Notes under the pieces: model-generated | Told to the model about the DNA's origin: nothing | The model's database searches: none | What the model saw: only the letters and a program-made list of their open reading frames with translations | Program-made: the position numbers and the translations under genes | Assembly: GCA_027311945.1 (NCBI GenBank) | Contig: DAICXZ010000017.1 | Coordinates: 1-64,000 of the forward strand | From: Erythrobacter sp. | Lineage (GTDB): Bacteria > Pseudomonadota > Alphaproteobacteria > Sphingomonadales > Sphingomonadaceae | Reading direction: 5' to 3' | Length of the DNA stretch: 64,000 nt | In this document: positions 27,917 to 58,400 of the stretch, in pieces | Numbering within the stretch: position 1 is the stretch's first letter | Layout of the letters: every line of letters begins with the position of its first letter

Positions 27917-27919
27917 GCC

Positions 27920-41545: not shown

Positions 41546-41712
41546 TCGGTCTTTCGGGCGCGAGAGAAATCGCGCCTGCAGCGTCGGGGGACAATTTTGT
41601 CCACCCGCACAGGCAAGCTCCAGTGAACTCACACCCGTAGAGATTGGTCATCGTGAGCGGTGCACCAGCCGCGACGTTGTCAGGTCAAGACTTTATGTGG
41701 GAGAGAGAATTC

Positions 41713-44310
41713 ATGGCGTTTCAAGCCAAACTTGCCCTTTGTGCATCCATCGCGGCATTGGCCGCGGGCATGCCGGGCGCCGCCTTGGCGCAGAGCAGCA
41801 AAGCCGATGCCGGGCCCCAAGCGAACGACGAGGGGGGCATTGCCACCATCGTGGTTACCGCGACCCGGCGCGAGACCAACATGCAGGATACGCCGATTGC
41901 GATCACGGCAGTCACATCCGATACACTGGAAACGCGCGGCCTCGCCGATGTTGCGGCATTGGGCAATATCGTGCCCAATGCCTCGTTCCGCCGCGCGCAG
42001 GGCGCATTCGGCAAAGCGGTGACAACCTATATCCGCGGCATCGGCCAGCACGATTCCAACCTTGCTTCGGAGCCGGCAGTCTCGTTCTATATCGACGACG
42101 TATATTATCCGCTGCTCTACGGCTCGCAATTCGAGCTGGTGGATCTCGAGCGGATCGAGGTGCTGCGCGGCCCGCAAGGCACCCTGTTCGGCCGTAACTC
42201 GCTGGCGGGCGCGGTCAATATCGTCAGCCGTGCACCGCAATTCGATGCCGCCGACGGCTTCGTGAACGTCACCGTGGGTGCCTTTAACCGGACAGACGTG
42301 CGCGCCGGCTTCAACTTGCCGCTGGCCGAGAACTTCGCGGTGCGGATCAACGGCCTTGTCAAGCGCCGAGAGGGTTACCAGGACATCCTCGACTTCCGCT
42401 GCGACATGATCCGCAAGGGCACGCCCGAACTTGCCAGCGAATTGCCGTTCACCGACGGGCTGCTGGTGCAGGAGGCGGTCCTGGGTGGCAGTTCCAGCCT
42501 TTCGCAGGACGACTGCAAGACCGGCACGCTCGGCGGCGAGGACGTGACCGCTGTGCGCGGCTCGGCGCTGTGGGAGCCAGCGCCGGGATTGCGCCTGACC
42601 GTAACCGGCGATTACAGCCGCGACAATTCCGAAAATGCGGCCGACAGCCTCATCAACATCAACGACACGATCGGGACGAGCAAGGCCACGATCAACGCAA
42701 TCGGCGATTTCTACTCCGTTCCCGGCCAGCCGCCGGTTCGCTACGACAGCCGATTCCTCACTGGTGATCCCTACACAACTTATGCCACCAACAGCGACCT
42801 GATCCCGGCAGGCTATGAACTGCGAACCTCCGCCGGGGAGGCCACCTTCTATAACGGCAGCCCGCTACGCGGCGGCAGCGCCTATTCGTTCACCGGCCCG
42901 CTGATCAACTGGGGTCTTTCGGGCAAGGTCGAGCTGGAAGTTTCCGACGCCATCGACCTGCTGCTGGTGGCTGGGTATCGTTCGGTGGATTCGATCCTCA
43001 GCTACGACGTGGACGGTTCGCCCTTCCTGCTCGAGCAGACGCGCAACAATACGGGGACCGAGAGCATCAACGCCGAACTCCGGCTGACCGGATCAACCGA
43101 CCTGTTCGACTGGGTGCTCGGCGGCTTCTACTATACCGCCGACGGCTATGTCCGCACCACGCTTGTCTCTCCGTTCTCGGGTGCAGCCGGGCTCCAGCGC
43201 TATCAGAACCATTCCTACGAGCCCGAATCGAAGGCAGCCTATGCCAACGTCGTTGTCCGTCCGGTCGAACGGTTTTCGGTGACGCTCGGCGGTCGCTACT
43301 CGGACGAGAAGAACGTCGTGCACTATTCCAACTTGCAGGATCCGGTGAACCTCGCCGATCCGGCTGCCGGAGCGGGCGCCATCGTGTTCGACGTAACCCC
43401 GGCCGACAAGCGTTTCGACTGGAAGCTGGGCCTCGATTACGAACTGACCGACGAGGTCTTGGTATACCTTTCGGCCTCGACCGGATTCCGCTTGCCTTCG
43501 TTCAACGCGCGGCCCTTCCAGCCAAGTCAGGTCTCCTCGATCCCGGGCGATGAAACCGTGGCCTACGAAGCTGGCGTGAAATCGGACCTGTTCGACCGCC
43601 GGCTGCGGCTGAACCTCACCGGGTTCTTTACCGATTACAAGACCCGTGCGCTCGCGGTGTCGGGGCAGGAGTACCAGCTCGATGCCAACAACCAGCCCTT
43701 GCCGGGCAATTCGATCGCGATCCCGCTTCCGACCGGCGGGGCCGATGCGACCACTTGCCGCGCGCGTACCCAGGCGGAGATCGATAGCGGCACACCCGGC
43801 TTTGCCTGCGTGTCGCGCAGCTATTACGTCAACACGCCGGGCGAGATATGGGGCGTCGAAGTAGAGGTGCAGGCCGAGCCGGTGGATGGATTGCGGCTCG
43901 ACGCTGCCGGCGGCTATTCAAAGTTCACATCGCCCGATCTCGAAGTCGCAGCCAATCCGCGCCCGGTGCGCGTGCCAGATTGGACAGCGAGCGCCGGCAT
44001 CCAATATGATTTCGATGCGGCGGCCCTGGGTGGCACGATCAGCCCACGGCTTGATTGGTTTTATCAGGGGAGCATGGTCTACGAGAACAACAATACGCGG
44101 TATAACCAGCCCTCGTTCTCCACCTTCAATGCAAGAATCAACTATTACAACGAAGAGTACGACGCAGACATCGCACTTGGCGCGACCAACCTTTTCGACG
44201 AATTCCATTACGAGAACTTGTTCGTACTCGAAGCCTTTGGTTACCCTCAGACGGCTGGCCAACCCAACGCTCCGCGCGAATGGTATCTATCGGTCACCAA
44301 AAGGTTTTAG
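41713..44310 (+). CDS. TonB-dependent receptor of the SnoaL cluster (left)
   Basis: The 865-residue receptor starts at ATG 41713 and has a signal ending GAALAQSS. The plug opens TIVVTATRRETNMQDTPIAI and contains YIRGIGQHDSNLASEPAVSF and EVLRGPQGTLFGRNSLAGAV. The barrel ends WYLSVTKRF with the terminal Phe expected for outer-membrane insertion. It is read away from the lipoprotein hydrolase gene in the same direction and is closed by a hairpin at 44323-44354. It likely imports the compound handled by the genes at 44.4-64 kb. Confidence 0.88.
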   Translation: MAFQAKLALCASIAALAAGMPGAALAQSSKADAGPQANDEGGIATIVVTATRRETNMQDTPIAITAVTSDTLETRGLADVAALGNIVPNASFRRAQGAFGKAVTTYIRGIGQHDSNLASEPAVSFYIDDVYYPLLYGSQFELVDLERIEVLRGPQGTLFGRNSLAGAVNIVSRAPQFDAADGFVNVTVGAFNRTDVRAGFNLPLAENFAVRINGLVKRREGYQDILDFRCDMIRKGTPELASELPFTDGLLVQEAVLGGSSSLSQDDCKTGTLGGEDVTAVRGSALWEPAPGLRLTVTGDYSRDNSENAADSLININDTIGTSKATINAIGDFYSVPGQPPVRYDSRFLTGDPYTTYATNSDLIPAGYELRTSAGEATFYNGSPLRGGSAYSFTGPLINWGLSGKVELEVSDAIDLLLVAGYRSVDSILSYDVDGSPFLLEQTRNNTGTESINAELRLTGSTDLFDWVLGGFYYTADGYVRTTLVSPFSGAAGLQRYQNHSYEPESKAAYANVVVRPVERFSVTLGGRYSDEKNVVHYSNLQDPVNLADPAAGAGAIVFDVTPADKRFDWKLGLDYELTDEVLVYLSASTGFRLPSFNARPFQPSQVSSIPGDETVAYEAGVKSDLFDRRLRLNLTGFFTDYKTRALAVSGQEYQLDANNQPLPGNSIAIPLPTGGADATTCRARTQAEIDSGTPGFACVSRSYYVNTPGEIWGVEVEVQAEPVDGLRLDAAGGYSKFTSPDLEVAANPRPVRVPDWTASAGIQYDFDAAALGGTISPRLDWFYQGSMVYENNNTRYNQPSFSTFNARINYYNEEYDADIALGATNLFDEFHYENLFVLEAFGYPQTAGQPNAPREWYLSVTKRF

Positions 44311-44455: not shown

Positions 44456-45235
44456 TCATAAGGCAGCGATATAGCCGCCATCGAGCGGGATGACATGACC
44501 GTTCACATATGCCCCGGCGCGGCTGGCCAGGAAGATCACCGTGCCTGCCGCGTCCTCCGGTTGGCCAGGGCGGCCGAGCGGAACGTGAGACGCAACGCTC
44601 CTTTTCACCGCCTCGCTTGCCACATCGGTGAGGCCGGAAGGGAAGGGGCCCGGCGCAACTGTGTTTACCGTGATGTGATCTGGGCCGAGAGCCTTGGCCA
44701 GCGAGCGGGTCAGATGATGCAATGCCGCCTTGGAAGCTCCATAGGCATGAGCTTCCCAATTGGGCACGTGCAATCCGCCGATTGAACCGACGTTGATCAC
44801 GCGCGCCGGATCCTCGGGGCTGGCCGCCGCGCGCAGTAATGGCAGCAACTCGCGGATCAAAAAGAACGGTGCCTTGGTGTTGACGCCCAACACCAGATCC
44901 CAATCCGCTTCCTCCATCTCGGCAAGGCTCCCCGCCGCGTTCGTCCCTGCGTTGTTGACGAGCAGGTCGAGCCGTTGTTCGCGAGCGGACAGGTCTGCCG
45001 CCAATGCCGCGACGCCACCGCGGGTTTCGAAGTCTGCTACCAGGCCGAAGCACTCGCCTTGCTGGCCGCGCAATTCTGCGGCGGCGGCGTCCACCCGGTC
45101 GGCATTGCGCCCGGTGATATATGTCCGCACGCCGCGCTCGACGATGCCGCGCGCAATCATGGCGCCGATGCCGCTGCCGCCCCCGGTGACGAGGGCGACT
45201 TTTCCCGCGACGGAGAACAGCGGATCGATTGCCAT
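44456..45235 (-). CDS. short-chain dehydrogenase/reductase (SDR)
   Basis: The 259-residue protein is a classical SDR: cofactor loop TGGGSGIG (17-24), NNAG at about 94-97, and catalytic Ser151, Tyr165 and Lys169 (AYGASK). The Arg in TGRNADRV after beta-2 suggests preference for NADP(H), though this is a weak indicator. It begins 7 bases after the stop of the triple-SnoaL gene on the same strand, so the two should be co-transcribed. It may oxidise or reduce an alcohol or ketone released by that protein. Confidence 0.87.
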   Translation of the reverse strand: MAIDPLFSVAGKVALVTGGGSGIGAMIARGIVERGVRTYITGRNADRVDAAAAELRGQQGECFGLVADFETRGGVAALAADLSAREQRLDLLVNNAGTNAAGSLAEMEEADWDLVLGVNTKAPFFLIRELLPLLRAAASPEDPARVINVGSIGGLHVPNWEAHAYGASKAALHHLTRSLAKALGPDHITVNTVAPGPFPSGLTDVASEAVKRSVASHVPLGRPGQPEDAAGTVIFLASRAGAYVNGHVIPLDGGYIAAL

Positions 45236-45242: not shown

Positions 45243-47363
45243 TCAGTCGCCCTGCATCACATTGGCTTCGGGCGGGGTCAGCTCGATGTGGATACCATCC
45301 TGTTCGGGGCCGTTGGGCGGCATCTGGTAACCGTGGCTGACGAGGCGTGCTTCGGGCAGGTCGAGGCCGGGGACGCTGTCGGGCCAATAGCGCTCGGGCA
45401 CGCGGCCCGAGACCGGGTTCTTGTAGTGGAACCACATCGGCAGGATGCCGGGCCAGGCAATCGTTTGGCCAGTGCCACCGCGGAAATGTTCGGCGCGGCG
45501 GCCGAGGTCGGTCATCAGGATATCGGGCGGCAGACGCTCGACGAGCGGGCTTTGCCCGGCGGCCTGTTCGGACGAAACCGGTTCGACCCCGGCCCAGCCT
45601 TCGTTCCAGTTGGCGCTGGTCATGTAGTGCTCGTCGATGGTCAGGCTCCAGAGCCGCCAGATGCCGTTTTCGAGCACGGCCTGGTCGTTCGGATACATCC
45701 CGGTGTTGAAGCCGGGGGTGTTGAGCGCGGTGTTTTGCCCGCCGTCGCTCCGGCGCAGGCCGGTGCGCGGCTGGAACAGGCGGGTGCGCAAGTTGGCGGA
45801 GCGACCGTCGTGCGACACATGGATCACCGGCTGGAAGCGCCAGTGAAAAGAGATGCCGTCGCGCAGCGTGGGTGGCTCGCCCCACATGGTGGTGGCTGCG
45901 GCTTGGACCCGATCCTTGCCGAGGTAGAAGCCGGCAAAGGGCGAGTGCTTGTTGCCTTGCTCGGCGAAGAGGCCGGCCATTTCCTTCCAGTGGAACTCGT
46001 CGATGTAATAGCCGTAGGCCGAGCTGACGTTGACGACCCCATCGTAGGCCGAGCTGCGGGCAAGGCGGCGCTGGGCGGTGATCAGGCGCTCGGCGGGCGT
46101 GCCACCGGCTGCGGGCGCGGCTTCGGCCTCGATCGGCGCCAGCAGCGGGGTTGCGCCCGCCTCGCGGAAGCCGGAAATCGTAACCGCTTCGCCGGTGATC
46201 GGATGCGGCTCGGTGAACGCGGGCAGGACGCGGGTCAGGTGGCTCGTGCCTCCAGCGGCCCAGCCATCGGCGTAGGTCGCCTTGAGCAGCGGATAGAGGC
46301 GCATCTCACGGATCTTCCACAAGCCCTGATCGAGCACGAACCGGTTGCGGAACACCTGGAACTCCCACCCAGCGGTTCCTGCGGTGTGGTCGCCCAGCAT
46401 GCCAAGCGCAAAACCGCGCGAATAGGCTTCCCGTTTGCCCTCGGCGAGGGTGATTACGGTGTCGAAGCTGGGAAAATCGTTGAGATCGCCGTCGCGAAGG
46501 CCCTCGGGACCGAACAGCTCCATCGCCTGCCGAATGCCCTCTGGCCCTTCGAACCGCCCGACGCCTTCTATCTCCACCACCCCATCGGCGGTGAACAGGT
46601 CAACCACGTCGGCCCACATCTTGCGATCGACATAATAGCCATAGCTGTTCTGCAGGTTGCGGACCTGATCCTCGGCATTCAACGCCGCGATGCGCGTCTC
46701 CAGTGCGGCCAGCGTGGTGTGGCTGGTCGGCGCGTTGCCTTGCGCAGGCGGGATCGGCATGCCGCTTTCGTCAAGCGTGAAGTGGAACGGGAAAATGGCC
46801 AGTTGCTCGTTGCGATAATTGGCCCAGCCATTGGCGTAATCGCCTTCGTATTGCGGGAAGTATTCGAGCCGCGAGATTTTCCACACGCCGTCCTGAAAGG
46901 TGTAGCCGTTTTCGTAGACGCCCCCTTCGATACGGCTTTCGCCGCTGCCGTTGCCGGCCAGCAACAGGCCCATCCAGCGCCCCTTGGCGCTGGTTCCATC
47001 GACCGCGAGATTGACCAGCGGCTCCTCGATCAGGTTTGCGAACACCGCTCCGTCGCGCAAGCCCCGCTGGCCGCCGACATAGTCCTGCAGGAACTGCGTG
47101 ATGGCCTGCTTGCCACGTATCGATTGCCCGGCCCACACCATCTCGGCGTCATCGGCGAAGAGGTCGGCCATTTCCTGCCACAATCCGAACTGCGCATATT
47201 GAGCGTAAAAGCGCTGGAGATCCTTGACGGCGCGCACCGATTCAACGCGCGATACGTCGCGGGCGAGCTCGTCCACCTGTTGTTGCGATAGTTCGGTGTG
47301 TGCAGCCGCCGGGCTGGCAAACGCCATGCCGAATGCTGCCATAATGGCGAAGATGGGGCGCAT
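45243..47363 (-). CDS. exported protein with three SnoaL/NTF2-like domains (copy A)
   Basis: The 706-residue protein starts at ATG 47363 behind AGGAGAGG with a Sec signal MRPIFAIMAAFGMAFASPAAA. Three SnoaL-like modules follow, each opening with a similar helix pair: LQRFYAQYAQFGLWQEMADL near residue 50, LQNSYGYYVDRKMWADVVDL near 240, and SSAYGYYIDEFHWKEMAGLF near 450. It ends with a region holding PMWFHYKNPVSGRVPE. SnoaL-fold proteins are small cofactor-free cyclases, hydratases, isomerases or lyases; three in one exported chain is outside the families I know. A second copy lies at 51597-53498 with the same ending motif. It is divergent from an AraC gene and followed by an SDR. Confidence 0.8.
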   Translation of the reverse strand: MRPIFAIMAAFGMAFASPAAAHTELSQQQVDELARDVSRVESVRAVKDLQRFYAQYAQFGLWQEMADLFADDAEMVWAGQSIRGKQAITQFLQDYVGGQRGLRDGAVFANLIEEPLVNLAVDGTSAKGRWMGLLLAGNGSGESRIEGGVYENGYTFQDGVWKISRLEYFPQYEGDYANGWANYRNEQLAIFPFHFTLDESGMPIPPAQGNAPTSHTTLAALETRIAALNAEDQVRNLQNSYGYYVDRKMWADVVDLFTADGVVEIEGVGRFEGPEGIRQAMELFGPEGLRDGDLNDFPSFDTVITLAEGKREAYSRGFALGMLGDHTAGTAGWEFQVFRNRFVLDQGLWKIREMRLYPLLKATYADGWAAGGTSHLTRVLPAFTEPHPITGEAVTISGFREAGATPLLAPIEAEAAPAAGGTPAERLITAQRRLARSSAYDGVVNVSSAYGYYIDEFHWKEMAGLFAEQGNKHSPFAGFYLGKDRVQAAATTMWGEPPTLRDGISFHWRFQPVIHVSHDGRSANLRTRLFQPRTGLRRSDGGQNTALNTPGFNTGMYPNDQAVLENGIWRLWSLTIDEHYMTSANWNEGWAGVEPVSSEQAAGQSPLVERLPPDILMTDLGRRAEHFRGGTGQTIAWPGILPMWFHYKNPVSGRVPERYWPDSVPGLDLPEARLVSHGYQMPPNGPEQDGIHIELTPPEANVMQGD

Positions 47364-47664
47364 GGTGCCTCTCCTGATCGTGTCTGCGTCCCGTCGCTCC
47401 GGGCCACTGTATCGTTGCGCGCCAAACATGCGGAGGCATGCCCCCGTGTGGCAAGGCCACGATCGACCAACGGCACGCTGGGCGCGGAATTTATGCCACT
47501 TCAGTCAAGTGGCGGCAAATGCCCGTGGCATTGTGCAAATCGGAGGAGTGTCGGTAGCTGCAACAAGTTTGCCATGGTCAAGCGGCAGCCTGACATCAGA
47601 TGGCCGGCAGGCTATCCGAAGAAAACGCATTGCCTCGCAGAAGGCAACAGTCGGGAGAACGCGC
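47364..47664. promoter_or_regulatory. divergent promoter region with two adjacent dyads (triple-SnoaL A / AraC)
   Basis: Two perfect inverted repeats lie back to back between the divergent genes. GCCACTT-N5-AAGTGGC occupies 47495-47513 and AATGCC-N3-GGCATT occupies 47518-47532. The first contains CCACTTGA on the minus strand, which also occurs at 61586-61593 near the second AraC gene. They are candidate sites for the adjacent AraC regulator. Confidence 0.42.
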
Positions 47665-48618
47665 ATGGAGGAGTTCAGCACTTCGGGATTGCCGACCTTC
47701 GGCAGGGCGGCGGCATGGGGCGAGATCTACGCCTCACGCATGAGCCAGGTCGAATTCACGCCGGGCAACAAGGACAAGTTCGACGCGGCCTTGAGGATCA
47801 ACCAGTTCGGGCCGGTCAAGCTCGCCCGTCTGGCAGTCGAGCCCTGCAGCGTCGAACGCAAGCAAAGCCACATCGAACGCAGCACGCCGCGCCATTACAA
47901 CTTCCTGCTGCAGGCGGAGGGGGCGAGCACCTTCTATCATTGCGGCAAGGAAAGCGAGCTGCGCGCGGGCGACTTCGTGCTGTGCGACACTGGACTGCCG
48001 CATTACTGGCTGACGACCGACCAGTCGGTGACGATGATGGTGCGGGTGGCGCCCACTGTCCTGCGCACCTATCTGCCAACGCCCCAGCAGTTCTGCGGCC
48101 AGCATCTCGGCCGGGCGCATGGGCTCAAGGATACCATCACGACCATGGTGCGCGAACTGAGCGAGAAACCGGCGGGCTCGATCGAGCCTGCCTACGAGGA
48201 TCGCGTGGCGCGCTACCTGCTCGAGATGATCTCGATGTCCTACATCATGGGGGCCGAGGCATCGTCGGAAGCTTCCGCCATCGCTTGGCAGCGACGCAAG
48301 GACGTAATCCAGTACATCGAGGAAAACCTGCGCGATCCGAACCTGTCGCCGACTTCGATCTCCGAGGGCCTGCGGGTGTCGCCGCGCTACATCCGCACGG
48401 TGTTCTCCACCGGGGGCGAGAAAATCTCGAGCTTCATTCTGCGTCGGCGGCTCGAAGAATGCGCACGGCAGATCCGCTCGCCCGCCTGGGGTGCGCACAC
48501 CCTGACCGAGATTGCTTTTTCATGGGGGTTCAACTCGGCAGCCCATTTCACGCGAACCTTCCATGAGAAGTTCGGCGTGGCACCTCGTGAATATCGGCGA
48601 CAAGCGCTTCGCGGTTGA
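47665..48618 (+). CDS. AraC-family transcriptional regulator (copy 1)
   Basis: The 317-residue protein has an N-terminal AraC-binding-like beta-barrel (FLLQAEGASTFYHCGKESEL, DFVLCDTGLPHYW) and a C-terminal double helix-turn-helix: SPTSISEGLRVSPRYIRTVF, then LTEIAFSWGFNSAAHFTRTF and FGVAPREYRRQ. ATG 47665 follows GGGAG at 7 bases. It is divergent from the triple-SnoaL A gene and is read toward the amidohydrolase operon, so it may activate both sides when it binds a pathway compound. A close paralogue lies at 61611-62561 and shares YLPTPxQFCGxHL. Confidence 0.9.
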   Translation: MEEFSTSGLPTFGRAAAWGEIYASRMSQVEFTPGNKDKFDAALRINQFGPVKLARLAVEPCSVERKQSHIERSTPRHYNFLLQAEGASTFYHCGKESELRAGDFVLCDTGLPHYWLTTDQSVTMMVRVAPTVLRTYLPTPQQFCGQHLGRAHGLKDTITTMVRELSEKPAGSIEPAYEDRVARYLLEMISMSYIMGAEASSEASAIAWQRRKDVIQYIEENLRDPNLSPTSISEGLRVSPRYIRTVFSTGGEKISSFILRRRLEECARQIRSPAWGAHTLTEIAFSWGFNSAAHFTRTFHEKFGVAPREYRRQALRG

Positions 48619-48657
48619 CCCACGCTGGCCGCCTGTTCGCCAATACGATCAATTCGC

Positions 48658-48676
48658 AATTCCTCCTTGGGGAATT
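48658..48676. promoter_or_regulatory. dyad upstream of the amidohydrolase operon
   Basis: AATTCC-N7-GGAATT lies about 90 bases before the amidohydrolase start. It resembles the TetR-island dyads but has a 7-base spacer and sits in a different cluster, so shared regulation is doubtful. It may be a site for one of the local regulators. Confidence 0.3.
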
Positions 48677-48766
48677 TGCCATCCCGCCGATGCACTACTG
48701 TGTGGCTTCGAATTTTCGAGGGGAAGACAGTGAAACTTACGGAGATGGCGAGCTGCGGCCAAGTGT

Positions 48767-49723
48767 ATGGCGCCCATGCTGCTTGATACGCACGCACACC
48801 TCATCTCCGACAATTGGGCACGGTATCGTGCCCAACCATTCACACCCGATTTGCCGGTGCCAGAGCGCCCGGCCTATACGATGACCAAGGACGAGTTGCT
48901 GTTGTTGATGGATCGGCACGGCGTTTCCAATGCCTGCCTGGTCCAGCGTGGCCATGTCTACGGTTATGACAATTCCTGCATTCTCGATGCCGCAGAGGAG
49001 CACCCTGAACGGCTTCACCCGGTGGTGATACTCGACACGCAGGATCCGCGCTCGGCCGCGCACTATCGGGATCTTGTACGTGCGCGCGGGGTTTCGGGCT
49101 TTCGGATGGCGCAAAGCCGGCCTTGGATTCTCGACACCGCCTGGCTCAGTTCGCCTTCCGCGATGGAGGTCTGGAAAGCCTGCGCCGACCTTGGCACGCC
49201 GATGGCGGTCATCGTCTTCGACAACCAGCTGCCCTATGTGTTGCCGCTGATCAAGCTGATCGCCCAGCAATTTCCCGATCTGCCCATCGTGCTAGATCAT
49301 GGTGCAATGCCTTATGGCATGTCGCAATACGAGGTGGCCCTGCGCGAGGCCGCGGGCGAAGAAGTGACCATGCCGCCACCGCCCGATTACGGGCTCGATG
49401 GCAGTGTCGCGATCTTCGCCGACTTGCCGAACATCTACTACAAGATAACCGAGATCGTGTTCGAGCGGACGGTGAAGGCCGGTGTCGAGGCAAGCGCGCT
49501 GGTGCGACGGATGGCTGACATGTTCGGCGCTGATCGCCTGGTGTGGGGCTCCGACGTGGGGCAGTCGATGCTGTGGGACTATGCCCGGAAGGTGGCAATG
49601 GCAAGGGATGCCGCAAGGCTTCTCGATGCCTCCGAAATGCACGCCTTCCTGTATGACAATGCGGCGCGGATTTATGGTGTTGGCCGTGCCGTAGCGGTAT
49701 CGAACGCTGAGCAGGGGATATAG
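48767..49723 (+). CDS. amidohydrolase-2 family protein
   Basis: The 318-residue protein has the amidohydrolase signature LLDTHAHLIS near the N-terminus, VLDHGAMPYGMSQ with a metal-ligand His, and the Asp of LVWGSDVGQSM near the end. The His expected in the middle strand is not obvious (MAVIVFDNQLPY), as in lactonases of the LigI type that need fewer ligands. Family members hydrolyse lactones, hydrate muconates or decarboxylate aromatic acids. It begins the forward operon after the AraC gene, and the aldolase gene follows after 3 bases. Confidence 0.8.
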   Translation: MAPMLLDTHAHLISDNWARYRAQPFTPDLPVPERPAYTMTKDELLLLMDRHGVSNACLVQRGHVYGYDNSCILDAAEEHPERLHPVVILDTQDPRSAAHYRDLVRARGVSGFRMAQSRPWILDTAWLSSPSAMEVWKACADLGTPMAVIVFDNQLPYVLPLIKLIAQQFPDLPIVLDHGAMPYGMSQYEVALREAAGEEVTMPPPPDYGLDGSVAIFADLPNIYYKITEIVFERTVKAGVEASALVRRMADMFGADRLVWGSDVGQSMLWDYARKVAMARDAARLLDASEMHAFLYDNAARIYGVGRAVAVSNAEQGI

Positions 49724-49726
49724 CGA

Positions 49727-50482
49727 ATGCAGATGCTGGCAGATCGGCTTAGGGCCTCACCGCGAGGGCTGGTGGGAACCTGGGTCAAGTTTCCGAGCCT
49801 TGAGTCGATGCAACTGCTTGCACACGCCGGGTTCGAATTCGTGGTGATCGATCTCGAACATGCGCCGCACGCGATGGACCGGGCGGTCGAGCTGGTCTTC
49901 GCTGCGCAGGCCATGGGCATGGCCGCTCTCGTGCGGCTGCCCGACCAGACTGGCGCAGCAGTGCAGCCGCTGCTCGATGGCGGGGCCGATGGGCTGCTGG
50001 TTCCCCGCGTCACCTCGCCGGAAATCGCTGCCGCCATTGCGCGGCGCATGGTGTTCGCCCCGCACGGCGAGCGTGGGCTCGGCACAACGTCGCGGGCGGG
50101 CCGCTGGGGCACCGGCGACATGGCAGCCTACATCGAGCGAGGCAACGAGCAGTGCCTGCGCGTGATCCAGCTTGAAGACTGGGACAATATTGCGCGCGCC
50201 GCCGACTATGCCGCGCTCGACGACGTCAACGGTCTCTTCATCGGTCACGGGGACCTGCTGTTGTCCTCGGGCAAGGGACCGGGCGACCCCGATGTACGGC
50301 AGTTGACCGCACGGATGCTGGCGGCCTGCCAGTCGGCGGGCGTGTTCAGCGGCGTGGCTGCGGCGGCGCCAGAGCTGGCGCGCAACTACCTCGACATGGG
50401 TTTCTCGCTCGTGATGGTGAGCAACGATACCACCATGTTTGCCCAGGCCGCCGCCGAAACACTGCGTCGCACCCTCGGCTGA
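49727..50482 (+). CDS. HpcH/HpaI-family aldolase
   Basis: The 251-residue protein is a class II pyruvate aldolase. It has the catalytic His in VVIDLEHAPHAMD, the Arg of AALVRLPD, and a metal-binding Glu in VIQLEDWDN followed by FIGHGDLLLS. HpaI-type enzymes split 4-hydroxy-2-oxo acids into pyruvate and an aldehyde. The aldehyde could be passed to the dehydrogenase encoded at 59590-61047. The gene follows the amidohydrolase by 3 bases and ends 128 bases before the lipoprotein gene. Confidence 0.88.
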   Translation: MQMLADRLRASPRGLVGTWVKFPSLESMQLLAHAGFEFVVIDLEHAPHAMDRAVELVFAAQAMGMAALVRLPDQTGAAVQPLLDGGADGLLVPRVTSPEIAAAIARRMVFAPHGERGLGTTSRAGRWGTGDMAAYIERGNEQCLRVIQLEDWDNIARAADYAALDDVNGLFIGHGDLLLSSGKGPGDPDVRQLTARMLAACQSAGVFSGVAAAAPELARNYLDMGFSLVMVSNDTTMFAQAAAETLRRTLG

Positions 50483-50610
50483 TCTCAGCGATTTTGCCCG
50501 GTGCGGTAGAGATAGCTGACCCCTGCGGCATTGTGCTCACCTACGGGTTTGCGCGGCCATATTCGGCGGTTAGGCCTCGCTGTCAGGGCAGTGGCCCGAG
50601 GGGAGAGGCA

Positions 50611-51600
50611 ATGTTTACGCGTTCGAGAATTCTGCCACTGATGGCCGCCGCGATGCTTGCGGGGTGCGCTACGGCACCGATGCCGGTCGAGGACAGGCCG
50701 CTCGCCGTTTATGGCAATGTCCAGACCATCGAAATCGCCACTACCCTGCTCGCCGCCGAGGAGTTCTATCCCGGCGAGGCGAGCGTGACGATGGGTTCGA
50801 TCGCCAATCTCGTGGGCGCGCCGCCCGTTTCCGGCTTTGGCGAGGTGGGCGAGGCCGACATTGCCACCAATGCCGAAACGCAGGCCTTGCGCTATTCGGT
50901 CGAAAATCCCGACCTGCGTATCCTCATGACCGTGACCGAAGGGCTCTACCGGGTCGTGGCGCGGCGCTCGGCAGGGATCGCCACCATGGCCGACATGAAG
51001 GGCAAGCGGGTGGCGACGATCCCGCAGACTTCAGCGGGCTATTTCTTCGGCCTGATGCTCGAGCGCGAGGGGCTGACTTACGACGACATCACGCCGGTTC
51101 CGATTGTGCCGCTCGCAGGGATGACCGAGGCACTCGCACGCGGAGAGGTCGATGCAGTGGTGATCTGGGAACCCGAAAGCGAGAATTCGGCGCAGGTGCT
51201 TGGCGACGATCTGATCGAGTTTTCGGGCAAGGGCGTTTACCGCGAACTGTTCAACCTCAATTCCACCACCGAGAAGCTGGAAGATCCCGCGACGCGTGCG
51301 CGCATCGTCCGCTTCGTTCGCGCGCTGATCGACGCTTCCGACGCTGCCCGCCAGAACCCGGCGCGCGCGCAGGAGCTGGTGACCGCCTCCGGTTCGTTCG
51401 ATCCGCACGACGTCGTCGAGAGCTGGGAGCATCACAATTGGCTTGCGGCCGTTCCTGCCGACCTGCTCGATGTCCTTGTGCGGCAGGAGCAATGGCTCGC
51501 CGGTCAAAGCAATCGCGCACCGCGTAGCCGCGAGCAACTCGCGCGGCTGATCGATACCAGCGTATACGCCGAAGCCATGGCCTTGGGCGAGGGCGAATGA
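50611..51600 (+). CDS. NMT1/SsuA-like substrate-binding lipoprotein (orphan)
   Basis: The 329-residue protein starts at ATG 50611 behind GGGAGAGG and has a lipobox MLAGC (Cys19). The fold is that of NMT1/SsuA/THI5-type ABC binding proteins: TIEIATTLLAAEEFYPGEAS, GVGEADIATNAETQALRYSV, KGKRVATIPQTSAGYFFGLM and GEVDAVVIWEPESENSAQVL. Such proteins hold small ligands (sulfonates, thiamine precursors, aromatic acids) in the periplasm for an ABC importer. No permease or ATPase gene is in the window, so it may serve a distant transporter or act as a binding or sensing protein. Its stop overlaps the triple-SnoaL B start as ATGA. Confidence 0.82.
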   Translation: MFTRSRILPLMAAAMLAGCATAPMPVEDRPLAVYGNVQTIEIATTLLAAEEFYPGEASVTMGSIANLVGAPPVSGFGEVGEADIATNAETQALRYSVENPDLRILMTVTEGLYRVVARRSAGIATMADMKGKRVATIPQTSAGYFFGLMLEREGLTYDDITPVPIVPLAGMTEALARGEVDAVVIWEPESENSAQVLGDDLIEFSGKGVYRELFNLNSTTEKLEDPATRARIVRFVRALIDASDAARQNPARAQELVTASGSFDPHDVVESWEHHNWLAAVPADLLDVLVRQEQWLAGQSNRAPRSREQLARLIDTSVYAEAMALGEGE

Positions 51601-53498
51601 TACGCCTGCTCGCCATTGTCCTGCTGATCGGCACGCCGTTGGCTGCTCCGGCGCGGGCGCAGGACGATCTCGCGCTCGAAACAGCGCATCTCGAAGACCT
51701 GACCTCGATCCGCCAGATCAAGCGGTTGCAGGCGCGTTGGGGGCATCTCGCTCTGGCAGGAAACTGGCAGGAGATGGCCGCGATGGCCACGGCCGATGCG
51801 CGGCTCGTCACCCGCTATGGCGAAATCACCGGACGTGGCGGCATCGCGGCCTGGCTAAAGACGGTAGAGGGGCGTGGACAGGACGGAATACCCGCAGGCC
51901 GAATGAACGCGCGCCTGTTCCTAAGCCCGGTCATCACGCTTGCCGCCGATGGCCAGAGTGCGACCGGGCGCTGGCACGAGATCGCTATGACCGCCGAGGT
52001 TGGCGGGGAGGCGGGCTGGCTCGGCGTGACCCATGTGATCGATTATCGCAAGAGCGGCGAGGGCTGGCAGATCGCACAGATCCGGCCCTATGAGCACTTC
52101 GAAGGCTCCTATGCGGATGGCTGGTCGCACGATGCAGAAACGCTCGAACGCGCGCCCTATCACTATACGCCCGACGAGGCAGGCGAGCTGCTGCCCGAGC
52201 GCCACGCCGCGCAGCCTCTCAGCGCCGACCGGATCGCCAAGGGCGGGACGCAGCTGCTGCTCCAGTCGCTGGCGGAGAACACCGTTGCGGCTTACGGCTA
52301 CTATCTCGATCGCGGGCTTTACGACGACATCGTTGATCTCTTCGCCGAGGACGCCACCATCGAGCAGGGCGGCGAGGGAAGTTGGCACGGCAAGGATGGT
52401 GCGCGGGCATTTCTCACCCGTTTCGGCGGACCGGGCCTGGATACCGGGGAGCTAAACGACCGGCCCCAGCTCATGCCGATGGTCAGCGTCGCGGCCGATG
52501 GTTCCTCCGCGCTGGTGCGCAATGTCGAGCTCGGCATGACCGGGCACCACGGCGGCGAGGGACAGTGGCAGCTCACGATGCAGACCTTCCTGCTGCGGCG
52601 CGATGAAGCAGGGCACTGGCAGATCGCGTTGATGCACCGCAATCCGATCATGCGCGCCGACTACGCAGCGGGATGGAACCACCCGCTGCCCGCTGCGCTT
52701 CCGCTCAGCGCTGCTGGTGAGCCCACTGGTACGACACGGCTCGGCCCGGTCGATTTCCGCGAAATTGGCTATGCTATCCCGGCGCTGGGCATGGAGATCG
52801 TCACCCCGGCGAGTGGTGAAGCGCAGACGCTGGCGCCGATCCCCGATGCTCTGGCGCGCGCCGAAGCCTTCGACGGGGCGGCAAATGTCTCGAATGCCTA
52901 TGGCTACTACATCGACCAGTTCGACTGGCCCGCCACCGCTGCGCTGTTTGCCGAAAATGGATGGAAGGAGCTGTCATACATCGGCACCTTCGTGACCCGC
53001 GAGCATGTGCTGCGCTCGCTCACCCAGCGTTATGGCATGGGCGGGCCGAACGATGCCTTTCAGGCGATCCACCAGAAGACGCAGCCCTATGTGACTGTGC
53101 TTCCAGACGATCCGACCCGCGCTTTCGTGCGCACCCGTCTGTTCCAGTTCAATTCTTCGAGCAGCGGTCCGGGAAGCTGGATTTCGGGCATTTACGAGAA
53201 CCAGATCGTCAAGGAAGACGGCATCTGGCGCATTCACGGGATGGACCTCGATTACGTCTGGCTGGGCGACTATGCGACAGGCTGGACCGGGATCGAAGAG
53301 GGCGCCAGCGAGCGATTTGCCCCTTCGCCCGAAGTTCTGGCCGCCTTCGCCGCCGATGCACCCCTGCGCGGTGAGGTTTTTGCGCCGTATCCGGCAATCA
53401 GGCCGATGGGCTTTCATTTTAGCAACCCGGTGAGTGGCCGCGCCCCTGAAGTCCAGCTTCAGTGGTCCGACGGCTACGGCAACAAGACCGCGGAGTAA
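51597..53498 (+). CDS. exported protein with three SnoaL/NTF2-like domains (copy B)
   Basis: The 633-residue protein starts at ATG 51597, overlapping the lipoprotein stop, with a signal LLAIVLLIGTPLAAPARAQ. Its three SnoaL-like modules open with IKRLQARWGHLALAGNWQEM near residue 42, VAAYGYYLDRGLYDDIVDLF near 230, and NAYGYYIDQFDWPATAALFA near 430. It ends with PMGFHFSNPVSGRAPE, nearly the same motif as copy A (PMWFHYKNPVSGRVPE). It is an ancient paralogue, not a recent duplicate: the chains align in plan but differ widely. Both are exported, so they may work together on a substrate in the periplasm. A bicupin gene follows 6 bases later. Confidence 0.8.
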   Translation: MIRLLAIVLLIGTPLAAPARAQDDLALETAHLEDLTSIRQIKRLQARWGHLALAGNWQEMAAMATADARLVTRYGEITGRGGIAAWLKTVEGRGQDGIPAGRMNARLFLSPVITLAADGQSATGRWHEIAMTAEVGGEAGWLGVTHVIDYRKSGEGWQIAQIRPYEHFEGSYADGWSHDAETLERAPYHYTPDEAGELLPERHAAQPLSADRIAKGGTQLLLQSLAENTVAAYGYYLDRGLYDDIVDLFAEDATIEQGGEGSWHGKDGARAFLTRFGGPGLDTGELNDRPQLMPMVSVAADGSSALVRNVELGMTGHHGGEGQWQLTMQTFLLRRDEAGHWQIALMHRNPIMRADYAAGWNHPLPAALPLSAAGEPTGTTRLGPVDFREIGYAIPALGMEIVTPASGEAQTLAPIPDALARAEAFDGAANVSNAYGYYIDQFDWPATAALFAENGWKELSYIGTFVTREHVLRSLTQRYGMGGPNDAFQAIHQKTQPYVTVLPDDPTRAFVRTRLFQFNSSSSGPGSWISGIYENQIVKEDGIWRIHGMDLDYVWLGDYATGWTGIEEGASERFAPSPEVLAAFAADAPLRGEVFAPYPAIRPMGFHFSNPVSGRAPEVQLQWSDGYGNKTAE

Positions 53499-53504: not shown

Positions 53505-54413
53505 ATGTACGAAGCCGATGATCCCCGCTCAGCGATGAGTGCCAATGCCTCGGGCAAGTCCGCTGACACTTCGGCCAGCGCTGCCTTCGGCCGGAGCACC
53601 TATGCCCGCTTCTATGACGAGCCGCCGCAGGAAGCCGATGCGCAGGCGAATACCTGGTATGCGCGGGGTGCCAACTTCGTCGTCTGCTATTCACAAGCGA
53701 AAGACGGTGCGACGTTCGAACGCCGCGGCCAGATCGACGAATATGTTCTGCTGCTGCATGATGGCGCGCTGTCGGCCACGGTCAGCGCCAATGGGGAGAC
53801 ACAGGAGATCGCCGGTTACTCGATCACCATGATCCCGCCTGGGCACAGCACCATCACCATACACGGTAGCGGCGAAGTCGTGCGGCTCATCTCGACCGAT
53901 AACGAAGATGTTGTCGCCAAGGTCTCAAACCCCGAGAAATATGTCGGTGCACATCCGCACGTTCCGCAATTTGCGCCCTGGCCGAAGCCGGCGGACGGCT
54001 TCCGCATCCGGTCCTATTCGCTTGACGTGCCCGAAGAGCCCGGCCGGTTCGGCAAGATCTTTCGCTGCACCACCTTCATGGTCAACGTGTTCCCGGCGCA
54101 AGGTCCGCGCGATCCGACCAAGCTATCGCCGCATCATCACGACGACTTCGAGCAATGCTCGCTCGCGCTCAAGGGCTGGTACATGCACCATCTGCGCTGG
54201 CCGTGGACCGCGAACCTGCACGACTGGCAGGACGATGAACACGAGAAGTGCCTCGCGCCGTCTGTCTGCGTGATTCCGCCGCGCGTGATCCACACCTCGG
54301 CCCCGTCCGATCCGGGCGACAACGTGCTGGTCGATGTGTTCGCACCCCCGCGAGAGGACTTCTCGGATCAGCCTGGCTGGGTGCTCAACGCCGCCGACTA
54401 TCCGCGCAAGTAA
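53505..54413 (+). CDS. bicupin protein of unknown function
   Basis: The 302-residue protein has two cupin halves. The C-terminal half keeps the metal motif: His210-His212 and Glu216 in SPHHHDDFEQCSLALKG, and His263 in IPPRVIHTSAP. The N-terminal half (YVLLLHDGALSATV, MIPPGHSTITIHGSG) lacks an obvious ligand set. No signal peptide is seen, so it should be cytoplasmic, unlike the gene before it. Cupins of this kind can be dioxygenases, isomerases or lyases. It lies 6 bases after triple-SnoaL B and 17 bases before the LigI-like gene. I cannot name a known family for it. Confidence 0.75.
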   Translation: MYEADDPRSAMSANASGKSADTSASAAFGRSTYARFYDEPPQEADAQANTWYARGANFVVCYSQAKDGATFERRGQIDEYVLLLHDGALSATVSANGETQEIAGYSITMIPPGHSTITIHGSGEVVRLISTDNEDVVAKVSNPEKYVGAHPHVPQFAPWPKPADGFRIRSYSLDVPEEPGRFGKIFRCTTFMVNVFPAQGPRDPTKLSPHHHDDFEQCSLALKGWYMHHLRWPWTANLHDWQDDEHEKCLAPSVCVIPPRVIHTSAPSDPGDNVLVDVFAPPREDFSDQPGWVLNAADYPRK

Positions 54414-54430
54414 CCGGCAAGGGCAAGGCT

Positions 54431-55297
54431 TTGACACAAGCGGACGGGCATCAAGTGGCAAGCGAGCGACCACGGATAGACTGCCACGTGCATGTCTTCG
54501 ATCGGGCGATGCCGATCAGCCCTTCCGCCTGGACGGTGCCGGACTACGCCTTCACGCCAGACGCTCTGCAGGAGCGATTGCGGCAGTTTGGCATCGGCCA
54601 TGCCGTTGTTTCCGGCCTTTCGATTTCGGGCGGTTACAACGATTACATGATCCGCGCCTTGCGCGCGCACCCGAACCTGCGGGGTACGGCAATCGTCGAG
54701 GCTCCGGGCGATTTCTACCTGTTTGAACGCCTGCATCGCGATGGCATCAGGGGGGTGCGCCTGCAGCTGGCGCGGCAGGACCGGCTTCCCGATCTCGACA
54801 GCTTCGAATACCGCCAGCTTCTGCGCCGCGTGCGCGACTTCGGCTGGCATGTGCAATTGGCGATCGAGGGGCCGCAGCTGCCGCAGGTGATCGAACCTCT
54901 GCTCGGGGCAGGGGTCGATCTGGTGTTCGATCATTTCGGCCATCCCGATCCAGAAGCCCCGCTCGAATGCGCAGGATTTGCGGCAATGTTGCGCGCGGTC
55001 GACACCGGTCGGGCATGGGTCAAGCTGTCGGGCGGCTTCCGCTTGCCCGGCACCTCGGCCTGGCGCGACGATCCCGAGGGTGATCTTGAATCGCTGGCAG
55101 ACACGGTAGCCGCCGCTCTGGTCGCTAAGGTTGGCGGCGATCGGTTGCTGTGGGGCTCGGATGCGCCGTTTGTCGGCTATGAAGGACGCATCGACTATCC
55201 GCGCGCGCTGGCCAGCTACGAACGCTGGCTTCCCAGCGCGAGCTTGCGTTCGCAGGTCTGCGCCACCGGCATGGCGCTTTACTTCGGAGGCAGTTGA
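54431..55297 (+). CDS. LigI-like amidohydrolase (2-pyrone-dicarboxylate lactonase family)
   Basis: The 288-residue protein resembles LigI, which opens the lactone of 2-pyrone-4,6-dicarboxylate. It has RIDCHVHVFDRAMP at the start, GIRGVRLQLARQDRLPDLDS and WHVQLAIEGPQLPQVI in the middle, VFDHFGHPDPEAP with a ligand His, and LLWGSDAPFVGYEG with the catalytic Asp. TTG 54431 has AAGGGCAAGG just before it; GTG 54455 is an alternative. It is followed by a TBDR. With the aldolase and the other amidohydrolase it suggests a lactone-opening then retro-aldol route, similar in logic to the protocatechuate 4,5-cleavage pathway. Confidence 0.8.
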   Translation: MTQADGHQVASERPRIDCHVHVFDRAMPISPSAWTVPDYAFTPDALQERLRQFGIGHAVVSGLSISGGYNDYMIRALRAHPNLRGTAIVEAPGDFYLFERLHRDGIRGVRLQLARQDRLPDLDSFEYRQLLRRVRDFGWHVQLAIEGPQLPQVIEPLLGAGVDLVFDHFGHPDPEAPLECAGFAAMLRAVDTGRAWVKLSGGFRLPGTSAWRDDPEGDLESLADTVAAALVAKVGGDRLLWGSDAPFVGYEGRIDYPRALASYERWLPSASLRSQVCATGMALYFGGS

Positions 55298-55459
55298 CGC
55301 ATGTCAGTGCCGCGTGGGGCATGAATCCATACCCAATTGGCCAAGAGAGGATTTTCCAAGGCTCCTAATCAGGGATGAATGCAGATTGAGAATGTGCGGG
55401 GTAGTTCACCCTGCAGTCCCAATGCTTGCGTAAAAAAATATAACGATTGGGAGGATCTG

Positions 55460-58400
55460 ATGGGAAAGTATTTAAGTGGCCGTCACAAGTTGTATCACGG
55501 TGTAGCCGTTATTTCCGTGCTCGCATCGTTTACTTGTGCGGGTTCGGCATCAGCGCAGGATACCCAGGCAGAAGCCGACGACGCCATCGTTGTCACCGGC
55601 ACCCGCATCAAGCGCGACGGCTTCAACGAGCCCACTCCCGCCACGGTTATTGGCGGCGACCTGATGGAGAACCTGGGCCAGGTGAACATCAGTGAGGCGC
55701 TGAGCCTGATTCCGCAGCAATCCAATTTCCAGTCCGACGCTGTTTCCGGCATAACCGCGGGCGCCAACGTAGGCGCTTCCTATGCCAACTTGCGGGGGCT
55801 CAATCCTTCCAACGGCACCCGCACGCTGACACTGGTCAACAGTCGCCGCTTCATACCCACATCGGACGGCGGCGCGATCGACCTGAATGTCATCCCCTCA
55901 GCCATGATCCAGCGGGTGGAGACAGTCACTGGCGGTGCTTCGGCAGCTTATGGCTCCGACGCGATCGCCGGTGTCGTCAACATTCTGCTCGAGACCCGCT
56001 TCGAGGGCATCAAGGCGCAGATCGACTATGGCGAGACCTTCCGCGGCGATGGCGGAAGTATCCATGCATCGCTGATCGGCGGAACGAGCTTCGCCGGAGG
56101 ACGCGGGCACATCACGGTGGGCGGCGAGTATCAAAGGAACGACGGGATCGGCGACTGCGCGAAGGTCCGCGAGTGGTGCGCCGAAAGCTGGGACATCTTT
56201 ACCAACGCCAACAACGTCCTTCGCGGCGGCGGTGCCTCTGGCTACAATATCCCCGGATCGCCCGGCTACGGACTTCCGCACTATGTGATCGGACCGGATT
56301 CCAAGCAGGCGAACAACGATCCGCGCGGCGTGGTTCGGGATCGTGCTCCGGCGGCGCAGGCAGCGCGCAACAAGCGTTTCACCGATGATGGCATGAGCGT
56401 GGTCGATTACGATCCGGGACGGTTCCTGAACTCGTTCCAGTTCGGTTCGCGGCAGGGCGGCGATGGTGCCTCGACCTATGACGATTCCGACATCCAGACC
56501 CCGCTCGAACGCTGGGTCGGCTACCTTTACGGCGAATATGATCTCACCGACAATATCCAGGTCCAGACCGAACTCACCTATGCTGATCGCTCTGCCTCCA
56601 ATACAAGCTATGTTGTCGGTCCACGCTCGACGTTCTTCGTCAACAACGACAATCCGTTCATTCCTGACGACCTGCGAGCCTTGCTCAACGGAACCAACTT
56701 CAGCCTGGGCAAGGATCTCGACTACATCCTGACTTCAGTGAACCAGGCGGATGCGCAGGTGTTTCGAGGTTTGCTCGGGTTCTCGGGCGGTCTGTTCGGT
56801 GACTGGACCTGGGATGCATATTACCAGTACGGACACAACAGCCGCCATCAGGAACGCTCGAACAACCGGGTCAACTCGGCCTTCCAGTTCGCTCTGGAAG
56901 TGGTCGACGAAGGCGAGTTCACTTCGGGCGTGCCCAACGGCAACTATGTCTGCAAGGAATTGCTGCGGCCCGACCCAAGTCCTATTGCCGAAGGTTGTCA
57001 GCCAATGAACCTGTTCGGCCTGAACCAGGTCGATGCGGAGGCACTCGCCTATGTCTATCGCGACGTACAGGAAGACTTCGAATATACCCAACAGGTGCTT
57101 TCCGGGGCGGTTCAGGGCACTCTCTTCGATGGCTGGGGCGCAGGTCCCATTTCTGCCGCTGCCGGTGTCGACTACCGTTCTGAAGGCGGCGATGTCACCC
57201 ACGGTGACATTCCGTTCTACAACGATTACGCCTTCACCTTCGGGCTCGACTATTCGGGCGATATCACCGTTCTGGAAGGGTTCTCCGAACTCAACGTCCC
57301 GGTATTCGCCGACGCCGCGTTCGGCGATCTGTTCGAGCTGAACGGGGCGGTGCGCTACACACGCAATCATGCCACCAACAACGATACCGACGAAGAGAAG
57401 ACCTCGGAAGCGGTAAGCTGGAAGATCTCCGGTATCTACGACATCACCGATGGCATTCGCCTGCGCGGCTCACGCTCGCGAGACATCCGCGCGGCGGGGT
57501 TCCGTGAACTGTTCCTGCGCAACGTGCCGACCGAGGAAGGGTCCACCAGCGGCATTGTCGAAAACCCCTGGCTGCCCGGCACGCCTCCCATCGGCGACGA
57601 CCCAACGCCCATCCTCAACGGCGGCAGCTTCGCGCTGAATCCGGAGAAGGCCGATACAACCACGGCAGGCATAGTCTTGCAGCCGAGTTTCATTCCCGGG
57701 CTCCGTCTGTCGGCAGACTGGTATCAGATCGATGTCAAGGATGCGGTGTCGACGCTGAGCGGCAACCGGGTGGTGGAGTTCTGCGACCAGTTCGATCTGT
57801 TCTGCGACAGGATTACCTTCGCACCGGGGTCCGATAGGATGGACATCACCTTCATCGACGCACGCCAGGTTAACCTTGCCAGCCTGAACCTGCGCGGGTT
57901 CGATTTCGAGGCGGCCTATACCATGCGGCTGGCGGACATCGACGCCGGGTGGAACGGCGCTCTCAACGCGCGGCTTCTGGTGAACCGTCAGTATGACTTT
58001 GTCGTGCAGGCGAGCCCGGATGCCGATCCGATAGACTATGCTGGCCAGTCAGGCCCGGTTGCCGATGGCGGCGACTTCAACCCCAGCCCGCCGTGGATTC
58101 TCAACGCCTTCCTGTCGTACGACAACGACAACTTCAACGCGACGCTATCGTGGCGCCATCTGAGCCAGGGCATTTACCGGGTAGATCGCATCGGGCCGGA
58201 AGACGAAGGCTATGATCCAACGGTGATGAATTCGATTTCGACCAATCGGGTCGATGCGGCGAGCTACTTCGGGCTGGCCGCGTCCTACCGGATACCGGTC
58301 GGCAAGTCGGATAGCCAGTACATCGAGCTGTTTGGTTCGATCACCAACATCTTCGATACCAAGCCCCCGATCGCCCCGGGCGGCGGCGGTGGCGGCGGGT

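Follow-up and report, generated by a model that had tools for sequence, protein, structure and literature searches.

Exported proteins with three LdpA-like units in an Erythrobacter catabolic cluster and their possible role in the metabolism of lignin-type aromatic dimers

The nearest solved relative of the proteins considered here is LdpA, a cofactor-free gamma-formaldehyde lyase of the NTF2 superfamily, which releases formaldehyde as it converts erythro-DGPD to lignostilbene; the reaction proposed for it includes a dehydration that gives a quinone methide (PMC12997858). For its homologue PcfL, a like deformylation step on a phenylcoumaran is described (PMC11323797). The former source, a 2026 review, counts 62 NTF2-superfamily homologues in Sphingobium sp. 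SYK-6 and states that more lignin-associated pathways await characterisation, and this strain is reported to take up a lignin dimer of the 5,5 type through a TonB receptor (PMC6874591, PMC8599685). We analysed a stretch of 64,000 nucleotides from Erythrobacter sp. (assembly GCA_027311945.1, contig DAICXZ010000017.1, positions 1 to 64,000 of the forward strand; hereafter the window), which encodes two exported proteins, A and B, each with three SnoaL/NTF2-like domains; we call them and their three-domain relatives SnoaL3. Their fold and likely chemistry are those of LdpA-like proteins; the exported, three-unit, partner-fused form is, as far as we know, new, and no paper describing the SnoaL3 family was found in the open-licence PMC literature, which misses most subscription journals. 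The reading we prefer, at a probability of roughly 45%, is that of an exported lyase or dehydratase whose three-unit scaffold carries one dependable active site and whose substrates are probably aromatic dimers of the lignin type.

Architecture and closest relatives

The two genes and their conserved tails are located as follows.

45243-47363, minus strand: protein A, exported triple-SnoaL protein (SnoaL3), 706 amino acids (open reading frame, Pfam, AlphaFold model)
51597-53498, plus strand: protein B, exported triple-SnoaL protein (SnoaL3), 633 amino acids (open reading frame, Pfam, AlphaFold model)
45393-45440, minus strand: C-terminal tail motif PMWFHYKNPVSGRVPE of A (translation and family alignment)
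53403-53450, plus strand: C-terminal tail motif PMGFHFSNPVSGRAPE of B (translation and family alignment)

Both reading frames proposed by the first-pass annotation exist, with A on the minus strand and B on the plus strand. The 706 residues of A are counted from MRPIFAIMAAFGMAFASPAAAHT, and an in-frame ATG at 47429 would give a longer form of 728. Pfam SnoaL_4 matches three stretches in A (2.6e-62) and three in B (3e-53), far beyond chance, and the AlphaFold models (pLDDT 88.7 for A and 89.9 for B, pTM 0.91 each, with a 33-member alignment as input) contain three NTF2-type helix-plus-sheet cones per protein, A and B alike and not fewer, as expected from the three modules originally claimed. 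A and B are ancient paralogues, about one-third identical (33% across the 674 columns of a BLASTP alignment and 31% when read from the family alignment), and with their Sec-type starts they bear out the earlier description of diverged, exported triple-domain paralogues in a catabolic cluster. That description had also spoken of a family without an assigned activity, and indeed no characterised family was found that matches A or B over the full length; no NCBIfam model scored above its cut-off for either. The Pfam family SnoaL (PF07366) remained under threshold for A (13.8 bits against a cut-off of 28.4) and was not listed for B at E <= 0.1, and with its score under the cut-off the identity of a polyketide-cyclase SnoaL was ruled out.

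Among solved structures, the best chains by sequence were 8abv, 8abt and 8abu (A to 8abv, E 2.6e-22; B to 8abu, 9.4e-17), whose PDB titles name LdpA (NaLdpA, SpLdpA). LdpA also led the fold search (A at Z 14.3, B at Z 14.5, root-mean-square deviation [rmsd] 2.0-2.3 over 184-188 residues), with the rows after it at Z 11.4 and 10.7; the best match was domain 2 of B with its tail (Z 14.5, rmsd 2.0 over 184 residues), and the next-best known enzymes by fold were BaiE and LinA (Z 9.8-11.4 for A and B). A and B are not LdpA orthologues: they are distant from it, and the window's genome has a separate LdpA (C19:58191-58703) that is 74% identical to the SYK-6 protein. PcfL and LdpA are 44% identical.

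The PMxFHxxNPVSGRxPE ending on which the first-pass annotation had relied is real and near-invariant but not diagnostic, being common to LdpA and to single-domain relatives. In the family alignment of 87 rows (33 earlier and 54 new sequences, 6 of 93 hits having been removed as not full length and duplicate sequences after them), the Gly of NPVSGR is found in 87/87 and the Arg in 86/87. SYK-6 LdpA has the tail PMSFAHPVLGK, like the SnoaL3 ending, and single-domain relatives carry similar ones (PPFHYANPVSGR, PPFHAPNPVTGR), with PPFHYANPVSGR or PPFSYSHPVTGE endings in the window's genome. Since these share the tail, NPVSGR was dropped as a family signature, and PMxFHxxNPVSGR is a general tail of LdpA-like units rather than a marker of SnoaL3 alone. 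Weaker versions of the tail come after domain 1 and domain 2 in A (PFHFTLDESG and PAFTEPHPITGE). In L146, a lipoprotein from an acidobacterium, three SnoaL_4 units are joined in one chain, all ending in PFHYKNP and all with Asp and His by eye. Because tail copies end the units of A, of this lipoprotein, of LdpA and of single-domain relatives, the repeating unit is a cone with its own tail, and A and B are almost certainly built of three LdpA-like units of this kind joined in one exported chain. A PDB search with the 23-residue stretch immediately ahead of the tail gave nothing useful.

Enzymes of the BaiE, LinA and scytalone dehydratase type are homotrimers. In the VIA alignments, some of the matched ranges start in domain 1 and run to a point past domain 2 (A 34-376 with LinA, A 23-378 with BaiE, B 18-392 with BaiE), which suggests, as a hint of a pseudo-trimer, contact between domain 1 and the tail behind domain 2.

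Active-site residues and history of the domains

The domains and the two putative catalytic codons of A are placed as follows.

46812-47282, minus strand: A domain 1 (residues 28-184), an NTF2 cone that lacks the Asp/His dyad, with Q58 and N110 in its place (model and alignment)
46248-46712, minus strand: A domain 2 (residues 218-372), Y244, D246, R278 and N295 kept, Phe at the His97 position (model and alignment)
45576-46094, minus strand: A domain 3 (residues 424-596), full Asp/His dyad (model and alignment)
45999-46001, minus strand: codon of D455, the Asp of YGYYID, in A domain 3 (Asp in 82/87)
45843-45845, minus strand: codon of H507 in A domain 3, aligned with the catalytic His97 of NaLdpA (His in 86/87)
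51663-52133, plus strand: B domain 1 (about residues 23-179), without the Asp/His dyad (model and alignment)
52224-52688, plus strand: B domain 2 (about residues 210-364), Arg at the His97 position (model and alignment)
52821-53303, plus strand: B domain 3 (about residues 409-569), full dyad D440/H492 (alignment)

His97 of LdpA is marked by the PDB title 'NaLdpA mutant H97Q' (8abu), and the HMMER alignment sets it against H507 in domain 3 of A and against N110 in domain 1. The helix Asp and the His97 equivalent are both present in domain 3 of 82 of the 87 relatives, in domain 2 of 34 and in domain 1 of only three, all of them gammaproteobacterial metagenome-assembled genomes (MAGs; L113, L114, L122); in A and B the dyad is complete in domain 3 alone. 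At the His97 position, domain 3 has His in 86/87, whereas domain 2 has Arg in 46/87, His in 34/87 and Phe in A. The AYGYYxDxxxW helix had been described for all three modules, which holds for domains 2 and 3; in domain 1 the equivalent reads YAQYAQFGLW (A) or WGHLALAGNW (B), and the Asp is missing. Domain 2 keeps a set of its own (A numbering: Y244 and N295 in 87/87, D246 and R278 in 86/87). We consider domain 3 the likely active site. The original guess of cofactor-free lyases or hydratases agrees with LdpA as nearest solved relative and with the retained Asp/His dyad, and the family offers a clean case of active-site loss among fused domains.

A domain tree (66 rows, comprising the domains of 18 members picked from the 87 and 12 single-domain relatives; 159 columns, midpoint root) has one branch that sets all copies of domain 1 apart, another for domain 2 and a third for domain 3 (98/86, 97/92 and 97/93), which indicates one fusion, by the sequence evidence an old one, before the split of A and B and the parting of the actinobacterial members. 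LdpA is the neighbour of the domain 1 group (98/97), and next to the domain 2 group lies an exported single-domain protein (86/88). With these two groupings a simple internal triplication is not favoured, and the pattern fits the joining of paralogues that had already diverged.

SnoaL3 is scattered, and rare in broad genome draws: B as query (E <= 1e-40) gave matches in 19 of 397 genomes drawn from the window's family, and A gave them in 5 of 246 from its order (1e-30) and, at 1e-40, in 2 of 385 from the class and 3 of 398 from the phylum. These draws overlap, and the window's own genome and near relatives recur in them. A named scan of the best 80 of 121 relatives, at 72 distinct loci, covered Sphingomonadaceae and relatives, Parvularcula, Caulobacteraceae, Gammaproteobacteria, a Deltaproteobacterium, Acidobacteria and the actinobacterial genera Nonomuraea, Pseudonocardia, Micromonospora and Microbacterium. 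Sphingobium sp. SYK-6 alone has nine three-domain genes, one gene for domain 3 only and one single-domain relative (E <= 1e-25), a concrete, testable subset of its NTF2 homologues, partner proteins included. The domain-3-only open reading frame (3377091-3377780, minus strand) encodes domain 3 and tail with a signal-like start and adjoins a full three-domain gene. The idea that a SYK-6 SnoaL3 pair adjoins ldpA was dropped, ldpA lying at 1378044, about 60 kb off. Locus tags of the SYK-6 SnoaL3 loci, searched by prefixes estimated from map position, were not found in PMC6874591, which concerns a SYK-6 TonB receptor.

Genomic setting, export and proposed function

Genome content bears on a possible link to lignin metabolism. 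Among 53 genomes of the window's family, all 19 with SnoaL3 also have LdpA (E <= 1e-35), as do 6 of the 34 scored negative for SnoaL3 (Fisher 1.5e-9); for the RPE65/lignostilbene-dioxygenase family the figures are 19/19 and 18/34. The 34 are all genomes named negative in two listings, a non-random draw in which some were tested with A only. The window's genome itself carries six RPE65-family genes besides its LdpA orthologue.

Around A and B, the window holds the following genes.

40475-41545, plus strand: DUF6282/amidohydrolase (Pfam), lipobox LLAGC by eye
41644-44310, plus strand: TonB-dependent receptor (TBDR1 cluster), named by eye from sequence
44456-45235, minus strand: short-chain dehydrogenase, 7 bases downstream of A (Pfam)
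47665-48618, plus strand: AraC-type regulator, divergent from A (Pfam)
48767-49723, plus strand: Amidohydrolase_2 gene upstream of B (Pfam)
49727-50482, plus strand: HpcH/HpaI-type aldolase gene upstream of B (Pfam, NCBIfam)
50611-51600, plus strand: NMT1/SsuA-like periplasmic binding lipoprotein (MLAGC lipobox by eye), overlapping B by 4 bases
53505-54413, plus strand: protein of 302 amino acids that matches nothing in Pfam or NCBIfam and by eye shows a cupin-like HHHDDFE motif; a candidate ring-cleaving or isomerising enzyme
54407-55297, plus strand: second Amidohydrolase_2 gene, downstream of B (Pfam; start uncertain)
55379-58477, plus strand: TonB-dependent receptor (TBDR2 cluster), named by eye from sequence
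58644-59579, minus strand: beta-keto acid cleavage enzyme (BKACE), recurring neighbour (Pfam, clusters)
59590-61047, minus strand: aldehyde dehydrogenase, recurring neighbour (Pfam, clusters)
61047-61508, minus strand: small single-domain SnoaL_4 protein without signal, recurring neighbour (clusters)

Neighbours were compared over 73 loci (the window and the 72 others, several from the same or closely related genomes) by a single Louvain run on genes from a home-made caller, which called SnoaL3 in 70/73 loci (92 genes, fragments included); clusters were mostly named from a Pfam scan of one representative or of the window's member, and the major facilitator superfamily (MFS) and TonB receptors by inspection of sequence. 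The commonest clusters were the short-chain dehydrogenase (28 of 73 loci), AraC (25), amidohydrolase (20 and 15), aldehyde dehydrogenase (19) and HpcH aldolase (18), followed by TonB receptors (18 and 7), the cupin-like protein (18), BKACE (18), the binding protein (16) and an iron-type alcohol dehydrogenase (15). Of the 92 SnoaL3 genes called, 13 have the binding-protein gene immediately 5′, and ten of these pairs, the window's among them, overlap by 4 bases; in L095 and L111 the binding protein is fused to SnoaL3. A BD-FAE/alpha-beta hydrolase (feruloyl-esterase-like) is fused to SnoaL3 in three genomes (L113, L147, L152) and encoded immediately 5′ of it at three more loci, while in a Micromonosporaceae MAG (L084) SnoaL3 runs on into an Ig-like domain and three cellulose/chitin-binding modules of the CBM_5_12 type. 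Eight SnoaL3 loci (L101, L104, L106, L107, L108, L110, L116, L119) have a split PPDK_N / PEP-utiliser gene pair, as in phenylphosphate synthase, accompanied by a CoA-transferase III (named by eye) in 7/8 and LigB in 4/8. Elsewhere in the window, 14987-26066 is a separate catabolic-looking cluster with a TonB receptor, a VOC-like protein (by eye), an FAD monooxygenase, two FAA hydrolases, a metallo-beta-lactamase-fold protein, an amidohydrolase and an MFS gene, and 27047-30912 encodes a Ku protein and a multi-domain DNA ligase D, the bacterial end-joining pair.

Sec signals had been read on both proteins, and we find them again by eye and by a simple hydrophobicity test, which scores 79/87 members as signal-like; a loose lipobox pattern matches 8/87. 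The eight rows failing the test are the two binding-protein fusions, L014 (signal-like by eye), L068 (borderline), L064, L066, L093 and L094. A second test, crude like the first and differing from it, called signals in 73/92 SnoaL3 genes, 16/18 BKACE, 8/32 short-chain dehydrogenases, 0/29 AraC and 0/19 aldehyde dehydrogenases, the BKACE and short-chain dehydrogenase calls being false by their known roles. Export is not peculiar to this family, as had been supposed from the view of SnoaL proteins as mostly cytoplasmic: exported single-domain SnoaL_4 proteins exist, for example three encoded in tandem in the window's genome (C10:103800-105879; signals by eye).

In the reading that we prefer, the three cones would pack as a covalent pseudo-trimer, with the working active site in domain 3 and with domains 1 and 2 turned into scaffold or binding domains. 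Domain 3 would act as a cofactor-free acid/base lyase or dehydratase by the reaction type proposed for LdpA, that is, dehydration to a quinone methide followed by formaldehyde loss, on lignin-type aromatic dimers or oligomers that enter the periplasm through the neighbouring TonB-dependent receptors. For B, the binding lipoprotein of the operon may catch substrate or product next to the enzyme, and the neighbouring enzymes would complete catabolism in the cytoplasm.

Several observations weigh against this picture. Identity of A and B to LdpA is only about 22-37%, the LdpA and RPE65 genes of the window's genome sit on contigs other than that of A and B, and co-occurrence with LdpA may reflect lineage: within the window's genus it stands at 3/3 against 3/9 (p 0.09), and six genomes have LdpA without SnoaL3. 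LigB appears in 6/73 neighbourhoods and an RPE65-type dioxygenase in only 4/73; BKACE, HpcH, the amidohydrolases and the cupin-like protein point to no single substrate, and CBM_5_12 is frequently a chitin module. The full domain 3 dyad is absent in 5/87 members, and domain 2 may be active too, perhaps as a second, different site, because Y244, D246 and N295 there are conserved no less well than the Asp and His of domain 3. The trimer hint is mixed, other alignment ranges (A 26-196 with 2rfr, B 208-398 with LdpA) ending in the domain's own tail. Four proteins that are not fusions (L064 of Nonomuraea, L066 of Pseudonocardia, L093, L094) fail the signal test outright; the genes of the first two lie a few genes from an ABC-importer-like set (named by eye), and it would fit these two loci that where an importer brings the substrate inside, the enzyme stays in the cell.

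The rival that survives best, though still unlikely, is a same-fold acid/base enzyme (dehydratase, isomerase or hydratase; compare BaiE, scytalone dehydratase, LinA and ketosteroid isomerase) whose substrate has nothing to do with lignin and could be, for instance, a terpenoid, a steroid, a sugar acid or a xenobiotic. The rank of BaiE and LinA in the fold search fits it, as do neighbours unspecific to aromatics (BKACE, HpcH aldolase, amidohydrolase, iron-type alcohol dehydrogenase) and a His-less domain 2 that presumably resembles the Tyr/Asp site of the ketosteroid-isomerase type; however, LdpA is clearly the nearest relative and the one that groups with domain 1, it accompanies SnoaL3 in every positive genome of the family, and SYK-6 harbors nine three-domain copies. 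We think it improbable that SnoaL3 is instead a periplasmic carrier whose NTF2 pockets bind a hydrophobic aromatic ligand after TonB uptake and pass it to the binding protein or an inner-membrane transporter. While the binding-protein fusions, the ten overlapping upstream genes and the dyad missing from domain 1 and mostly from domain 2 would suit a carrier, the dyad is kept in domain 3, the esterase and CBM fusions suit an enzyme better, 79/92 called SnoaL3 genes have no binding-protein gene immediately 5′, and among labelled neighbours at the 13 loci that do, no ABC-cluster gene adjoins the pair (in L118 one lies four genes away), therefore leaving no clear hand-over target. Also improbable, but compatible with action on lignin dimers, is that domain 2 rather than domain 3 is the main site, or that both act sequentially on one substrate: the near-invariance of its Tyr, Asp, Arg and Asn, the closeness of B domain 2 to LdpA in structure and the full dyad in 34/87 speak for this, against which stand the Arg of 46/87 members and the Phe of A at the position where domain 3 has His. 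A fused multi-domain iota-type carbonic anhydrase, which likewise has several NTF2-like domains and was found by Foldseek over more than one domain (ranks 12 and 28), has next to no chance and was rejected, as the overall superposition carries no meaning (rmsd 31-32 Å over 331-341 aligned residues by VIA, 35-36 Å over 634 columns by Foldseek), the HHHSS motif of these enzymes is absent from A and B, and the neighbourhood is catabolic.

The widest form of the preferred reading, which we put forward as speculative and rather unlikely as a whole, would make SnoaL3 a hitherto unrecognised enzyme class that works outside the cytoplasm, needs neither cofactor nor oxygen, and splits or dehydrates linkages in lignin-derived oligomers before uptake, as covalent pseudo-trimers with one or two of three sites decayed and in periplasmic, lipid-anchored, CBM-carrying secreted and esterase- or binding-protein-fused forms. 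If it is true, bacteria possess, in addition to peroxidases and laccases, an extracytoplasmic step on lignin fragments that is non-oxidative and carried out by enzyme alone. A family of exported three-unit relatives of LdpA would bring cofactor-free chemistry of the lignin type to the outside of the cell.

Comparison with known systems

LdpA (8abt, 8abu, 8abv, 8abw) shares with SnoaL3 the SnoaL_4/NTF2 fold, the YGYYxD helix, the His97 equivalent (in SnoaL3 domain 3) and the P-M-x-F...P-V-x-G C-terminal tail, and is found in the same genomes; it differs in having one domain and no signal peptide, whereas SnoaL3 is exported and has three fused units, of which domain 3 alone is reliably complete. 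PcfL, the phenylcoumaran gamma-formaldehyde lyase, is an LdpA homologue with the same type of deformylation (PMC11323797).

The tandems of exported single-domain SnoaL_4 proteins resemble SnoaL3 in export, in their LdpA-like units and in the tail motif, and consist of three consecutive genes, but these genes are separate; the acidobacterial L146 is a fused version of them. At one such site in SYK-6 (1330432-1332742), three of them are followed by a PQQ-dependent dehydrogenase gene with a cytochrome domain. BaiE, LinA and scytalone dehydratase have the NTF2 fold and an Asp/His acid-base dyad as in SnoaL3 domain 3, yet they are single-domain proteins and a weaker match than LdpA, BaiE and LinA reaching the Z values given above. 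Lastly, the double NTF2 epoxide hydrolases of the Lsd19 and MonB type resemble SnoaL3 in their fused NTF2 domains and differ in having two domains, other chemistry and a poor whole-chain superposition (rmsd about 14-17 Å).

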